NCBI RefSeq assembly: GCF_000332195.1
Contig: NZ_KB235922.1
Location: 3,135,322 to 3,199,321, forward strand
Reading direction: 5' to 3'
Origin: Pleurocapsa sp. PCC 7319
Lineage (GTDB): Bacteria > Cyanobacteriota > Cyanobacteriia > Cyanobacteriales > Xenococcaceae
Length of the DNA stretch: 64,000 nucleotides
Part shown: positions 1 to 52,899 of the stretch, piece after piece
Layout of the letters: each line of letters opens with the position of its first letter
How positions within the stretch are numbered: the first letter of the stretch is position 1
Made by a program: the position numbers and the translations under genes
Notes under the pieces: generated by a model
Told to the model about the DNA's origin: nothing
Databases searched by the model: none
What the model saw: only the letters and a program-made list of their open reading frames with translations

Positions 1-1457
1 GCCCAAGCATGGACAGGAGGGTTAACATCCCCAAATGCCCATTCATAGGCGGGAATTTGTCCATTGGGGTGCATATACCATTCCCGGGTCATGATATCCA
101 ACTGATATTTAGCATAATCAGGATCGATTAGGGCAATAGGTAAACAGTGAAAAGCTAAATCCCAAGCAGCATACCAAGGGTATTCCCATTTATCTGGCAT
201 AGAGATAATATCTTCATTATCTAAATGCTTCCATTGATGATTGCGTCCCTTTTTCCTTTCTGGTGGAGGTGCGGGTTGAGTGGGATCGCCTTCCAGCCAA
301 CGTTCGATGTCGAATTTATAATATTGTTTTGTCCACAGCATCCCAGCAAAAGCTTGCCTCTGGATATTAATTAAATCTTCGTTTAAAGCTTGCTTGTTTA
401 TTTGCTGATAAAATTCATCAGCCTCCCCTAAACGGGTTCTGAAAATATCATCAAATTCATCAGCTAAAGGTTCAGTTAAATTTGACTTATCACTCAGTCG
501 TAATTTAATTACTTTGGTTTCTCCTGGTGGAATAGTTAATTGATAGTGCGGCGAAAATTTCGTGCCAATTTTATGGGGATTAACTGCCTCTTTTTGTTCG
601 TTAACTACAAAATTATTAATGCCATCTTTGGCATATTTAGCACCATTGTCGTAATTAAATATCTTTTGATAATTAGTTTCGTTTTCGGTAAATAATAATT
701 CGGGCTGACCTTCACAATATAACCAGCGATCGCCTTGTTCTGGATGATTGGTTTCGATTACGGTATGTTGTAGGGGCTGATCGAGAACAGACCCTACAGA
801 AATTTTGGGTTTAACTGTATCTTTGTCCCAAGACCAGGTATTACGAAACCATAAAGTAGGTAGTAAATGTAATGATTGGGTGGGCGAAAGCCTTTCGCCC
901 TTACAGCGATTAGTAATAGTAATTTTGATTAAAATATCTTCTGGTGTATCTTTGGCATATTCAACCAAAACATCGTAGTAATTATTATTTTCAAAAGCTC
1001 CTGTATCCAATAATTCATATTCCATTCCTCCCCGACCTCGTTGCCGATTTTCTGCTTCTAAATCAGCGTAGGGAAATTCTGTCTGAGGATATTTATATAA
1101 TCCCTTCATATAAGAATGAGTCGGAGTACTATCAAGATAAAAATAATAATCTTTGACATCTTCTCCATGATTGCCTTGAGAGCCAGTTAATCCATAGATA
1201 CGCTCTTTTAATATCGAGTCTTTGCCATTCCATAAGGCGATCGCAAAACAGAGTAGTTGCCGATCGTCACTAATACCCAAAATACCATCTTCTCCCCAAC
1301 GATATGCCCGCGATCGCGCTTGGTCGTGAGAAAAGTAATCCCAGGCTTCCCCTGTGGCACTATAATCTTCTCTAACTGTTCCCCACTGCCTTTCACTGAG
1401 ATAAGGTCCCCATTTTTTCCAATCATTTTGTTGTAAACGTTCCGATTCTTTAGTCAT
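1..1457 (-). CDS. GH63/MGH1-like glycoside hydrolase, C-terminus cut by window edge
   Basis: From the ATG at 1457 the minus strand stays open for 485 codons to the window edge, so the C-terminal part is missing; relatives are about 880 residues. Around residue 425 lies [15 protein letters not shown], followed by [16 protein letters not shown]. This is the signature of the (alpha/alpha)6 barrel of GH63-type glucosidases and mannosylglycerate-hydrolase-like enzymes; the Asp of WDLAF is the likely catalytic acid. It is therefore expected to hydrolyse alpha-glucosidic or related bonds; the substrate is not readable. No signal peptide is visible, so it is probably cytoplasmic. It is the last gene of a four-gene minus-strand operon, 35 bases after the debranching enzyme. 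Two palindromic repeats lie in frame inside it (769-799 and 878-906). Confidence 0.85.
769..799. repeat. Palindromic repeat inside the GH63 gene
   Basis: TGTAGGG and CCCTACA arms (7 bp, perfect) enclose 16 bases. It belongs to the common cyanobacterial GTAGGG...CCCTACAG class. It is read in frame as roughly [11 protein letters not shown] (residues 219-230). Confidence 0.6.
878..906. repeat. Palindromic repeat inside the GH63 gene
   Basis: GGGCGAAAG and CTTTCGCCC form a perfect 9-bp stem with a one-base loop, followed by TTACAG. It is read in frame as [10 protein letters not shown] (about residues 184-194). The CGCCCTTACAG end is shared with the copy at 1879-1908. Confidence 0.75.
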
Positions 1458-1477
1458 GTTTTTGCTAATTGATAATC

Positions 1478-1498
1478 GTTAATTGTTAATTGTTAATT
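1478..1498. repeat. Heptanucleotide array (GTTAATT)x3
   Basis: Three perfect 7-bp units lie between the GH63 start and the debranching-enzyme stop. The stop codon of the latter (1493-1495) lies inside the array. Confidence 0.85.
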
Positions 1499-3520
1499 GC
1501 TATGAATCATCACCCAACTTCTTAATACTTCTGCTACACTCCAAGCTTGAGCAAAACAACCTCTGGGAGAAAAGGGTGTATCGCCGTCGAAAATTTCGCT
1601 AATGCTGCCGATACAACCATCTTGTAAATGATCAGCCATTGGTTCGAGAAAAGTATAAGCAAGTTCTGGATTTTGATAAACTTTCAGGTGTGCTTGAATG
1701 AAATGACCTATTAGCCAACCCCAAGTAGTTCCCTGATGATAACTCCCGTCGCGTTTTAATTGATCTCCGCCATAGATTCCAACGTAATCGGGATGATCTC
1801 TAGAAAGCGATCGCAATCCATAAGAAGTTAATAATTTTTGCCCTACTTTATCGACCACCATTTTCTGTTGTTCTGGTCGTAGGGGCGTTTCGCGAAACGC
1901 CCTTACAGAATAACCCCTACTCGGCAATGAAACGGCAAAAATTTGATTGGGACGAAAACTGGCATCATTTCCATCAGGAGAATCAATTACGTCGTAGCAA
2001 TAACCACCTTCTTCATACCAAAACTTAGAAAAGTGCGATCGCGTTTTGCTTGCTATCTCCTGATATCTAGTCTCAGATTTCTGCAAAATACTAGCAAAAT
2101 AATCCATGCAAATTAGAGCGTTATACCAAAGAGCATTTACTTCTACAGGCTTACCAATACGAGGGGTAACTACCCAATCTCCTACTTTGGCATCCATCCA
2201 AGTAAGCTGTACTCCTGGCTCGCCAGCATAGAGTAAACCATCATCATCCATCTTGATGTTGTAGCGGGTTCCTTTAATGTGCCAATCAATAATTTCAGCT
2301 AGCAAAGGGAATAACTCGGCAATAAATTCCCGATCTTCAGTTGCATCATAGTAAGTGCGGATTGCTTCAAAATACCAGAGAGTAGCATCTACAGTATTGT
2401 ATTCGGGAGTTTCCCCTGCATCGGGAAATACATTGGGCAACATTCCCCGATCTACATACTTGGCAAAGGTAAGAAGAATAGTTTTCGCAATGTCATAACG
2501 CCCTGTAGAGATCGTTAATCCTGGCAGACTGATCATCGTATCTCTACCCCAATCAGTAAACCAGGGGTAGCCTGCAATAATCGTTTTCCCTTCAGGATTA
2601 TTAGTTAACGGGCGATCGACAATGAATTGATCTGCTGCTAAAACCAACTGCTCTATCCATTCTGGTGCAGCTTGAAGTTTATTCTGAGAATAGAACAGAT
2701 CGATTAATTTTCGCCCTTTTTCCTCCTTCTCTTTGTCACCGTGTCTCTTTGTCTCCTCATCTTTCTGAGTACTGGCGACAAAAGTTATGGAATCCCCTGG
2801 TTGTAAACTAACGTTGCCAGTTGCAGCTAATAAATGATCTTCTGTATCATCCAAACCCCGATAGTTCTCTACTGCTAAGGCAAAATTCTGATACCAAGTA
2901 TTGTTGATTAACCAACTAAAGTTATGAGTCGAATTTTCTGAAATTGCTGATAAATATAAACTGGCAGCGTCAGGAAAAGGTTTGATTTCTAGATCTACAT
3001 CTGATATTGGTTCAATCTTGCCTATAGATTTTGAGTCAAAGTGAGTTCCACCATGATAATCGCGATAATTTACTAATGCTTTGAGAGATAGAGTTAAAGG
3101 CTGACTACCTCGCTGATAGCTATAGCGAATATAAGTGGTATTTTCTCCCTGGTGCATCCAGATACGTTTTTCTAGTAACCCATCAGCAAAAGCAAAATTC
3201 CAAACAGGAGTTGTTCCATCTAAATGAAAACTCTCAATATTGAGGTATCCTTCAGGTGCCACAGTACCATCTGCCCATCGGTTAGTAGCTAGATCGTAAA
3301 ATTGACCGTTGTAGTGAACAATCTCTTCAAGTTTAGTTAACAGTAAAGTTCTGGCTACAGGTGGGTTTAAAGCCCCAATCAGTAAACCATGATAGTGTCT
3401 GGTCAATACTCCTGCGATCGTTCCTGAAGCAAAACCGCCAATCCCATTGGTAACTAACCATTCTCTTGATTCCACCATTTGCAGGTTATTACATATTTCT
3501 CGCCCAAACTTGAAATTCAT
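1493..3520 (-). CDS. Amylo-alpha-1,6-glucosidase (glycogen debranching enzyme)
   Basis: 675 residues, a usual length for bacterial and archaeal single-chain debranching enzymes, which hydrolyse alpha-1,6 branch points of glycogen. The N-terminal GDE domain (about 10-235) shows NGIGGFASGTIAGVLTRHYH. The C-terminal (alpha/alpha)6 domain (about 285-670) shows AGYPWFTDWGRDTMISLPGL, VDATLWYFEAI and TTWGWLIGHF. Cytoplasmic; no signal peptide. It lies 23 bases downstream of nnrE and 35 bases upstream of the GH63 gene, so co-transcription is likely. Two stretches look foreign to the family: a very polar insert near residues 254-272 (KDEETKRHGDKEKEEKGRK) and a palindrome-encoded segment near 538-548. 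Both are in frame, and the enzyme motifs are intact. Confidence 0.93.
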   Translation of the reverse strand: MNFKFGREICNNLQMVESREWLVTNGIGGFASGTIAGVLTRHYHGLLIGALNPPVARTLLLTKLEEIVHYNGQFYDLATNRWADGTVAPEGYLNIESFHLDGTTPVWNFAFADGLLEKRIWMHQGENTTYIRYSYQRGSQPLTLSLKALVNYRDYHGGTHFDSKSIGKIEPISDVDLEIKPFPDAASLYLSAISENSTHNFSWLINNTWYQNFALAVENYRGLDDTEDHLLAATGNVSLQPGDSITFVASTQKDEETKRHGDKEKEEKGRKLIDLFYSQNKLQAAPEWIEQLVLAADQFIVDRPLTNNPEGKTIIAGYPWFTDWGRDTMISLPGLTISTGRYDIAKTILLTFAKYVDRGMLPNVFPDAGETPEYNTVDATLWYFEAIRTYYDATEDREFIAELFPLLAEIIDWHIKGTRYNIKMDDDGLLYAGEPGVQLTWMDAKVGDWVVTPRIGKPVEVNALWYNALICMDYFASILQKSETRYQEIASKTRSHFSKFWYEEGGYCYDVIDSPDGNDASFRPNQIFAVSLPSRGYSVRAFRETPLRPEQQKMVVDKVGQKLLTSYGLRSLSRDHPDYVGIYGGDQLKRDGSYHQGTTWGWLIGHFIQAHLKVYQNPELAYTFLEPMADHLQDGCIGSISEIFDGDTPFSPRGCFAQAWSVAEVLRSWVMIHSN
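1879..1908. repeat. Perfect 20-bp palindrome inside the debranching enzyme gene
   Basis: GGGCGTTTCGCGAAACGCCC (1883-1902) is self-complementary. It is flanked by GTAG on the left and TTACAG on the right. It is read in frame as part of SVRAFRETPLRP. Same repeat class as 878-906. Confidence 0.8.
2715..2760. repeat. Polypyrimidine repeat read in frame in the debranching enzyme gene
   Basis: A run of C/T-rich units (CTCCTT, TCTCTTTGTC, GTGTCTCTTTGTCTCCTC) encodes a run of Lys, Glu and Asp in the linker between the two enzyme domains. A related ACACGGAGACACGGGGAG string occurs between genes at 26788-26806. Confidence 0.55.
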
Positions 3521-22695: not shown

Positions 22696-22715
22696 TTAGG
22701 AGTCATATCTTAACT

Positions 22716-22748
22716 AGCTTATAGCTTATGGCTTATGGCTGATAGCTG
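22716..22748. repeat. Degenerate heptanucleotide array (AGCTTAT)
   Basis: Units AGCTTAT, AGCTTAT, GGCTTAT, GGCTGAT, then AGCTGGG lie between two minus-strand genes, followed by a GGGGCGAAGCCC hairpin remnant. Confidence 0.75.
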
Positions 22749-22766
22749 GGGCGAAGCCCTTTATCG

Positions 22767-36295: not shown

Positions 36296-36344
36296 GTGGC
36301 GAAGCGTCTTCGCCACACAGCCCTAAAATAAAGGGCTTCGCCCC
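36296..36344. repeat. Intergenic palindromic repeats
   Basis: GTGGCGAAG-CGT-CTTCGCCAC (36296-36316) is a perfect 9-bp hairpin. It is followed by a second CCCTAAAATAAAGGG hairpin and GGGCTTCGCCCC. These are the intergenic counterparts of the palindromes found inside the GH63 and debranching enzyme genes. Confidence 0.75.
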
Positions 36345-36379
36345 AGCTATAAGCCATAAGCTCTAAGCTTTAAGCTTTT
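36345..36379. repeat. Degenerate heptanucleotide array (AGCTWTA)x5
   Basis: Units AGCTATA, AGCCATA, AGCTCTA, AGCTTTA, AGCTTTT follow directly on the palindromic repeats. Confidence 0.75.
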
Positions 36380-36435
36380 TGATAAATACAGAGAGTGATT
36401 GTCATAGTTAACAACAAAATGTTGCCACCATGGTT

Positions 36436-46695: not shown

Positions 46696-46848
46696 GATAA
46701 ATCACCCTAGTTATCTATATATTGCTATGTTAGCTATTATTACTATGTCAAAAATTTTCCTGATTATGAAAAAAACGATAGGGGTAATTAATTAAATTAC
46801 CCCTAATGATAGACCTTGAGACTATAACCAATTAATAGAAATAGCTAA

Positions 46849-50013: not shown

Positions 50014-50181
50014 ATGTTACCCAACATATTTTTTATTTCTTTAATAGCTTTCATTGCTCTATATATACTTAGAGGAATTGGTATGATTACTTTTCTTCCA
50101 GGAGGGGTTATTGCAGTCTTGTTAATAACCGCCGTAGTATCGGGGCTAGCTTGGGGGATTTTGAGGACGAGAAGGTATTGA
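50014..50181 (+). CDS. Small two-helix membrane protein, 55 residues
   Basis: ATG at 50014; the product reads MLPNIFFISLIAFIALYILR, then GIGMITFLPGGVIAVLLITA and VVSGLAWGILRTRRY. Two hydrophobic helices around a Gly/Pro turn and a basic C-terminus give a small inner- or thylakoid-membrane protein. I recall similar short proteins in other cyanobacteria but no named family. No strong ribosome-binding site is seen. Its TGA stop (50179-50181) abuts a heptamer array, and the following flavoprotein gene lies in another frame, with a start that is hard to place. Confidence 0.65.
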   Translation: MLPNIFFISLIAFIALYILRGIGMITFLPGGVIAVLLITAVVSGLAWGILRTRRY

Positions 50182-50230
50182 GTTCGGAGTTCGAAATTCG
50201 GAGTTCGGAGTTCAGAGTTGGTAATTCGGA
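50182..50230. repeat. Heptanucleotide array (GTTCGGA)x7, degenerate
   Basis: Seven units (GTTCGGA, GTTCGAA, ATTCGGA, GTTCGGA, GTTCAGA, GTTGGTA, ATTCGGA) fill the space between the stop of the 55-residue gene and the flavoprotein gene. They can be read as SSEFEIRSSEFRVGNSE in the flavoprotein frame. Confidence 0.85.
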
Positions 50231-50249
50231 GTTATTCAAAGTAAAAATT

Positions 50250-52787: not shown

Positions 52788-52836
52788 GTATCTTGGGAAA
52801 TTGACTCCTCACCGCCCTAAAGAGTCGGTGATTCTG

Positions 52837-52885
52837 GTTTTTAGTTTTTAGTTTTTAGTTTTTAGTTTTTAGTTTTTAGTTTTTA
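52837..52885. repeat. Heptanucleotide array (GTTTTTA)x7
   Basis: Seven perfect tandem units, the longest such array in the window, lie 50 bases after the glutathione peroxidase stop. Confidence 0.95.
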
Positions 52886-52899
52886 GTTCAAATTGACTA

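Follow-up and report, generated by a model that had tools for sequence, protein, structure and literature searches.

In-frame copies of a GTAG-tagged REP-like palindrome at re-used enzyme loops in Pleurocapsa sp. PCC 7319 and related cyanobacteria

Palindromes in two glycosidase genes

The stretch of 64,000 nucleotides analysed here (the window; contig NZ_KB235922.1 of Pleurocapsa sp. PCC 7319, positions 3,135,322 to 3,199,321) begins with two genes on the reverse strand, which encode a GH63-like glycosidase and a glycogen debranching enzyme and which together carry three copies of a short palindromic element. Copies of the same element were found elsewhere in this genome of 7.39 Mb (10 contigs) and at corresponding enzyme loops of related cyanobacteria. 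The features concerned are:

3..1457, reverse strand: GH63-like glycosidase gene (open reading frame (ORF) call; 485 aa inside the window, truncated by the window edge)
770..799: palindromic element, site B of the GH63-like gene; encodes 10 residues
880..906: palindromic element, site A of the GH63-like gene; encodes part of a 12-residue stretch, +5 aa compared with orthologues
1493..3520, reverse strand: glycogen debranching enzyme gene, 675 aa, with the Pfam domains GDE_N and GDE_C
1879..1908: palindromic element in the debranching enzyme gene; encodes residues 538-548 (VRAFRETPLR), ahead of helix 549-562

An initial annotation made from the sequence alone, from which the name GH63 is taken, had described three palindromes in frame in these genes, and all three were recovered at 770-799, 880-906 and 1879-1908, with both reading frames running through them uninterrupted. 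Its description of the arms as perfect holds for 880-906 (9-bp arms) and for the 20-bp palindrome within 1879-1908, but not for 770-799, whose palindrome has a larger loop and one internal mismatch. When the window was scanned with a covariance model of the element (R1), which was made from 12 copies, 1879-1908 matched with 45.8 bits (E 8.6e-12) and 770-799 with 36.9 bits (E 5.4e-9), both of them being seeds of the model and the only two from the window; the copy at 880-906, which is not a seed, matched with 16.4 bits (E 0.018). A fourth place between genes, 36296-36344, had been assigned to the same class; this is not supported, as it gave no match to R1 at E<=10 and is absent among the genome matches listed. 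Positions 36296-36320 hold a GTGGCGAAGCGTCTTCGCCACACAG palindrome that does not match the element model.

The debranching enzyme is identified by PF06202 (E 4.5e-128) and PF12439 (E 4.4e-72), and its nearest named relatives belong to Xenococcaceae, Hyella, Xenococcus and Pleurocapsa. The open frame of the GH63-like gene comprises 904 aa in locus L227; a Pfam search with the 485-aa part of the protein gave no match and phmmer found no match in the PDB. Among the 60 genomes searched, own genome counted, 48 contain a match to the debranching enzyme and 40 a match to the GH63-like protein, and the best 30 loci of each search, corresponding to 29 loci of relatives each, were used for orthologue alignments. 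The five-residue insert of 880-906 occurs in none of the 29 aligned GH63 orthologues and is thus confined to its own genome. At the site of 770-799, two of the 29 relatives hold elements with other cores, namely GGGGCGAATGGCCATTCGCCC in genome G019, encoding VGANGHSPN, and a TTTCGCGAAACGCCCCTAC copy in G026, encoding VGTFRETPLQ. The debranching enzyme loop is hypervariable, and palindromes are found there in several relatives, with eight distinct cores among nine elements; the core of the G019 element is identical to that of 1879-1908. Had orthologues without the repeats carried the same residues, the palindromes would have to be regarded as ordinary coding sequence; since the aligned orthologues lack these residues or have different ones, the proposal that palindromes entered coding DNA is supported.

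AlphaFold modelled the debranching enzyme with a mean pLDDT of 77.9 and a fold that matches GH63, GH94, GH116 and yeast debranching enzymes; residues 536-542 have pLDDT values below 50 and overlap the insert, which is predicted to sit between the helices 524-531 and 549-562. The model thus agrees with a loop position of this insert, and the repeats may be tolerated in loops, as is the case for Rickettsia palindromic elements. The model of the GH63-like protein (pLDDT 45.9) is too poor for use. The filled loops described below presumably lie at the protein surface.

The repeat family and its copies inside genes

The family consensus is GTA[G/A]GGGCG-N10-CGCCC[C/T]TAC, with a length of ~28 bp. 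In the own genome, scanned on both strands, 149 of 150 scored candidates, out of 1341 first-look candidates, matched the model and merged to at least 79 places, a lower bound that excludes the weak copy at 880-906. The 79 listed copies are 28-30 bp long, start with GTA[G/A] in most cases and mostly end in GTAG/CTAC. With scoring limited to 122 candidates or fewer in each genome, 48 of 59 relatives (49 of 60 genomes including the own one) match the model at E<=0.01. The family looks like a GTAG-tagged repetitive extragenic palindromic (REP) sequence, to which it is likened by its tag, length, copy number and mostly intergenic placement. When the listed places were compared with ORF calls based on codon usage, 54 were located outside of ORFs, 12 at their edges and 13 inside; ORFs of at least 200 aa account for 16,539 codons in the 64 kb window, so that approximately 61 of the 79 copies would be expected in genes if placement ignored genes. 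At the variable stem pairs 10-12 of 53 copies that measure 28 nt, 155 of 159 cells hold a Watson-Crick pair and G/T or A/C intermediates are absent, which fits several perfect-palindrome subfamilies or template switching. The match at L009 was read as native coding sequence and not as an inserted copy. Eleven identical copies of GTAGGGGCGCATGGCAATGCGCCCTTACGA in the own genome (L189-L198, L223) may belong to a larger mobile repeat, and a weak model match in the window at 46778-46808 (17.3 bits, E 0.0091), which has an AT-rich core and the form ATAGGGGTAATTA..AATTACCCCTAATG, is perhaps a divergent family member. An Rfam scan of the window gave a tRNA as the sole match and no other known RNA family.

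In-frame copies occupy 13 ORF positions of the own genome: 12 of the 79 listed places, after removal of L210, which probably lies ahead of the true start of a RecQ-like gene, and the copy at 880-906. According to NCBIfam, the filled genes encode CobN, MetH (two copies), LeuS, BchH/ChlH, PriA, IleS, CobD and the pyruvate:ferredoxin oxidoreductase NifJ; the MetH and IleS hits are partial ORFs, which score below the whole-protein cut-off. A further in-frame copy is located in L208, an ORF that is adhesin-like by inspection and lies outside the comparison of 12 loops described below. Leucyl- and isoleucyl-tRNA synthetases (LeuRS and IleRS), PriA and magnesium chelatase are usually essential, and, judged from the conservation of the genes, the in-frame copies seem to sit in functional ones. 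Two types of insert peptide occur, V.[A/S]....P.. and [R/K]GE..., and the third frame of the element holds a stop codon, TAG from GTAG or TAA from the GTAAGGG form. By inspection, nine copies of the own genome use the V.[A/S] frame, four the [R/K]G frame and none the stop frame.

The relative G007, whose genome is a single contig, likewise has at least 79 listed places, seven of which were too weak (E 0.094 to 1.94) to be kept; 20 of the 72 places examined are in ORFs, five of these having at most 12 bits of coding support on one side. Ten of the 20 copies are read in the V.[A/S] frame, nine in the [R/K]G frame and one in the third frame, the last having a degenerate arm without the stop. With copies in the ORFs of both genomes, the claim that the element disperses into coding DNA is supported. 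The G007 copies at 3086740 and 3954808 lie in apparent duplicates of one gene, and G007 has copies in further genes as well as elsewhere in CobN and the GH63-like gene. Furthermore, two G007 elements (L158; 2539538 and 2539673) lie 45 codons apart in one ORF of 871 aa, which looks like an alanyl-tRNA synthetase; the number of tRNA synthetases carrying inserts would then rise to three, LeuRS and IleRS being the others.

Re-use and turnover of the loops

Segments around nine of the own inserts were searched in 17 relatives, part of the matches was fetched, and these nine loops were compared together with the debranching enzyme loop (GDE) and the two GH63-like sites (GH63A, GH63B) in up to 17 relatives. 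Each loop received a score composed of the two arms and the inner pairing, and an element was called at a score of at least 17; this score was reached by none of the 1040 control windows taken from these genes, the maximum being 16. Elements are present in 68 of 182 site-genome pairs, and in 56 of 170 pairs without the own genome. The score misses compound forms, such as those in IleRS of G012, CobN of G006 and ChlH of G007 and G022. The loops are listed with the number of genomes holding an element (own genome counted) and, for the seven sites with a near-constant empty length, the loop length in residues (longer forms in brackets):

CobN: 4 of 18 genomes
LeuRS: 11 of 18; empty ~20, filled 22-24 (28, 31)
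MetH1: 6 of 17
MetH2: 7 of 17; empty 20, filled 25-27 (31, 35)
ChlH: 5 of 14
PriA: 9 of 17
IleRS: 7 of 16; empty 18, filled 21-22 (29, 31)
NifJ: 2 of 10; empty 22-23, filled 23-25
CobD: 4 of 15; empty 18-19, filled 25-29
GDE: 9 of 16
GH63A: 1 of 12; empty 15, filled 20
GH63B: 3 of 12; empty mostly 22, filled 23-25

Eleven of the 12 loops are therefore filled in at least one relative, usually by a different copy. Relatives carry, for instance, VGAIGQSPL, VRAFRETPLQ, VGKFHETSLQ, VGAIRESPLQ or VEAVREQPLT in the LeuRS loop, VGAVREQPLQ, VGANGYSPLQ or VGAVREPPLQ in the PriA loop, and VGANGRSPLQ, VRAVREQPQ or VGANGHSPLQ in the IleRS loop, and the inner 10 bases differ in 118 of 132 same-site pairs. 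Three of the 20 ORF copies of G007 (PriA, IleRS and LeuRS) occupy a loop in which the own genome has a copy as well, whereas 0.0035 coincidences within 10 codons would be expected under uniform placement and an assumed coding fraction of 80%. A capture-recapture calculation with these numbers (12, 20, 3) gives 67-80 loops, or 51-60 if 15 of the 20 G007 copies are kept, which puts the tolerant loops of the cyanobacterial family roughly at 50-80, a value resting on three recaptures and on place lists that are lower bounds.

On a tree of the 18 genomes derived from flanking residues, in which 11 of 15 inner branches are well supported, presence of the element over the 12 loops requires 50 changes compared to a mean of 51.0 for shuffled labels, with 411 of 1000 shuffles at or below the observed number, and the 68 elements require 66 changes of variant. 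CobD alone shows some tree signal (two changes; 31 of 1000 shuffles). As presence fits the tree no better than shuffled labels, elements are gained and turned over repeatedly at these loops.

If a 30-nt element were inserted cleanly, a loop would gain 10 residues; however, 28 of the 35 filled loops at the seven sites gain only one to eight residues by our count, and the other seven gain 11 or more. At CobN, PriA, ChlH, GDE and MetH1, the empty loops vary too much in length for the gain to be estimated. In 20 filled/empty pairs picked by us, the native bases missing by length amount to 0-55 nt and to 7-25 nt in 17 of them. The inserts thus seem to replace native codons in part, and the shortfall can be explained both by deletion accompanying insertion and by later trimming.

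Origin of the inserts and related repeats

These observations are probably best explained by the spread of a GTAG-tagged REP-like palindrome of ~28 bp through the cyanobacterial family, with most copies coming to rest between genes. Copies entering coding sequence would survive only if the net change in length is a multiple of three, if the element is read in either of the two frames without a built-in stop and if the protein loop tolerates the peptide, selection on loops thereby acting as a filter. Tolerant loops would be few, and frequent insertion would refill the same loops in different lineages, mostly with different copies; filled loops may later be trimmed, overwritten or entered by further repeats. 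The route may be transposition in trans by a REP-associated tyrosine transposase (RAYT) or templated copying during repair. In-frame REPs and Rickettsia palindromic elements are known already; what is new is the re-use of loops with fast turnover. It is conceivable, though we would put it forward only tentatively, that the ~50-80 enzyme loops are family-wide standing landing sites, at which in-frame overwriting, replacement and exit proceed faster than species divergence. If so, essential enzymes would be undergoing a natural and ongoing loop-replacement mutagenesis, for which templated repair would be a more probable route than a dedicated transposase. The refilled loops of orthologous enzymes constitute a natural data set of loop replacements, and two old questions become testable with them, namely by what route REPs move and in which protein loops a foreign peptide is accepted.

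That ordinary coding sequence or chance accounts for the palindromes has a negligible probability: short palindromes do arise by chance, and empty LeuRS and GDE loops often hold PL at the right end, so that the right arm may be partly native, but this explanation is ruled out by the aligned orthologues without the residues and by the control windows, and the peptide FRETPL is found both in the own debranching enzyme and in the GH63-like protein of G026. An alternative that we consider unlikely is that the elements are ancient at their loops and inherited, their cores having been altered by conversion or by template switching between the arms, with empty loops as later losses. Several findings favour it; those on core similarity and on shared LeuRS copies also count, together with the limits of the sampling, against recurrent refilling. 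Same-site cores share 5.90 of 10 bases (n=132 pairs) compared to 5.19 (n=1126; permutation p 0.008) and are thus more alike than expected by chance, which indicates that some copies were inherited. LeuRS copies are shared within clades, with the core ATTGGTCAAT common to G003 and G011 and TTTCATGAAA common to G017, G019 and G026; a remnant is present in G022, which has retained the right half of an element resembling that of its sister G017. The Watson-Crick stem pairs without intermediate steps would also fit template switching. In addition, the 17 relatives were selected by us from 59, the sites were selected for an own-genome copy, the tree was built on flanks of the same genes, with the loops excluded, and elements with scores of 17-18 are doubtful (e.g., GDE of G014 and G015), so that some may be false. 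No element match at E<=10 was found around the 27 Y1 transposase loci of the own genome (90 kb), so that no transposase could be linked to the element. The recurrence may reflect tolerance of the loops rather than targeting. Ancient inheritance is, however, difficult to reconcile with the distribution on the tree. Empty IleRS loops hold native residues of the KPELVEFW type in both clades, and deletion of an insert cannot restore these, which counts against empty loops as losses. The two clades also have the right junction of IleRS one codon apart, and copies within one genome resemble each other no more than random ones do (5.02 of 10, n=120, p 0.84) and therefore do not support conversion within the genome.

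Templated copying during repair or fork restart instead of transposition, in which insertion is accompanied by loss of target bases, is possible and could be combined with the recurrent spread favoured here, yet we rate it as somewhat less probable than not being involved. It would account for the missing native bases and the undersized gain of the filled loops, for the lack of elements near the Y1 transposases and for nested inserts, such as those in ChlH of G007 and G022 and the 52-nt forms, which make up 6 of the 68 elements. However, the filled and empty pairs are diverged, and later trimming under selection would give the same picture; moreover, the "empty" LeuRS loop of G022 is itself a remnant. 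According to Di Nocera et al. (2013, PMC3733652), REPs elsewhere have been tied to RAYTs by experiment, and the own genome encodes one RAYT-like protein of 268 aa (63.9 bits, under the curated cut-off of 80).

As described in that paper (PMC3733652), GTAG-tagged REPs are short palindromes with GTAG at one end, many copies and a mostly intergenic location; the families GTAG-12, -15 and -16 are cyanobacterial, several species have some REPs within ORFs, two Xanthomonas species carry one at roughly the same site of recB, and RAYT genes are frequently, though not universally, flanked by REP copies. The family described here resembles them as a dispersed, mostly intergenic palindrome of 20-40 bp with GTAG at one end, a likeness drawn to the class as described. 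In contrast to them, its other end mirrors the tag (CTAC), loop re-use was followed through 18 genomes, the gain in loop length falls short of the element length, and no RAYT lies beside a copy at the 27 Y1 loci examined.

The best-known palindromic inserts read in frame are those of Rickettsia, whose palindromic elements are said, in work attributed to Ogata (2000, 2002), to be selfish, to be read in frame inside enzymes and to be tolerated by the fold. The palindromes described here are likewise in frame within enzyme genes, but they lack a CGTC tag, their copies mostly ending in GTAG/CTAC, and the core insert of ~9 residues seems to substitute part of the loop. The Rickettsia palindromes are mentioned in PMC3733652 and PMC6649704, and those of R. 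conorii end in CGTC according to the former. PMC6649704 describes perfect inverted repeats in conserved coding sequence of nematomorph mitochondrial genes, which were gained and lost among species; in contrast to the present family, they are longer, belong to animal mitochondria and are not described there as one dispersed family. REPs seldom overlap coding regions, as stated in a 2025 survey (PMC12306157). A search of mainly open-access literature, with the intragenic-REP list of PMC3733652 outside its scope, found no publication describing loop re-use in enzymes of cyanobacteria.

Other small repeats occur in the same loops. Most of the 52-nt forms have a 24-nt insert holding TCCTTTAGG or its complement, and a 24-nt repeat with GCGAAGCTAGTCCTTTAGG or relatives lies in frame within the palindrome loop at L249, L234, L276, L277, L228 and L311. 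The fetched sequence (1.63 Mb) contains the 9-mer TCCTTTAGG in 63 distinct contexts, compared to ~12 expected from composition, although it is a biased set and native coding sequence accounts for some of the contexts; by eye, roughly 20 of 45 printed contexts show the form GCG..AGC..TCCTTTAGG. Small dispersed repeats of Nostoc, reportedly described by Elhai in 2008, are said to be 21-27 nt long, mobile and inserted into each other; the 24-nt insert resembles them in kind, a likeness drawn to the class as a whole. The CobN and PriA loops contain G-rich tandem repeats, and CCCCCCTT..AAGGGGGG palindromes occur in MetH1, ChlH and CobD loops of single relatives. The composite in-frame inserts in ChlH of G022 (L342) and G007 (L343) comprise several tens of residues and look as if assembled from more than one small repeat. 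In the window, 22705-22764 and 36328-36387 form a 60-nt inverted copy (85%) with the heptamer-like AGCTTATGGCTTATGGCT beside GGGGCGAAGCCC, which is another dispersed repeat class, and tandem heptamer-like repeats of TTTTTAG and GAGTTCGGAGTTCG are located at 52832-52887 and 50180-50233.

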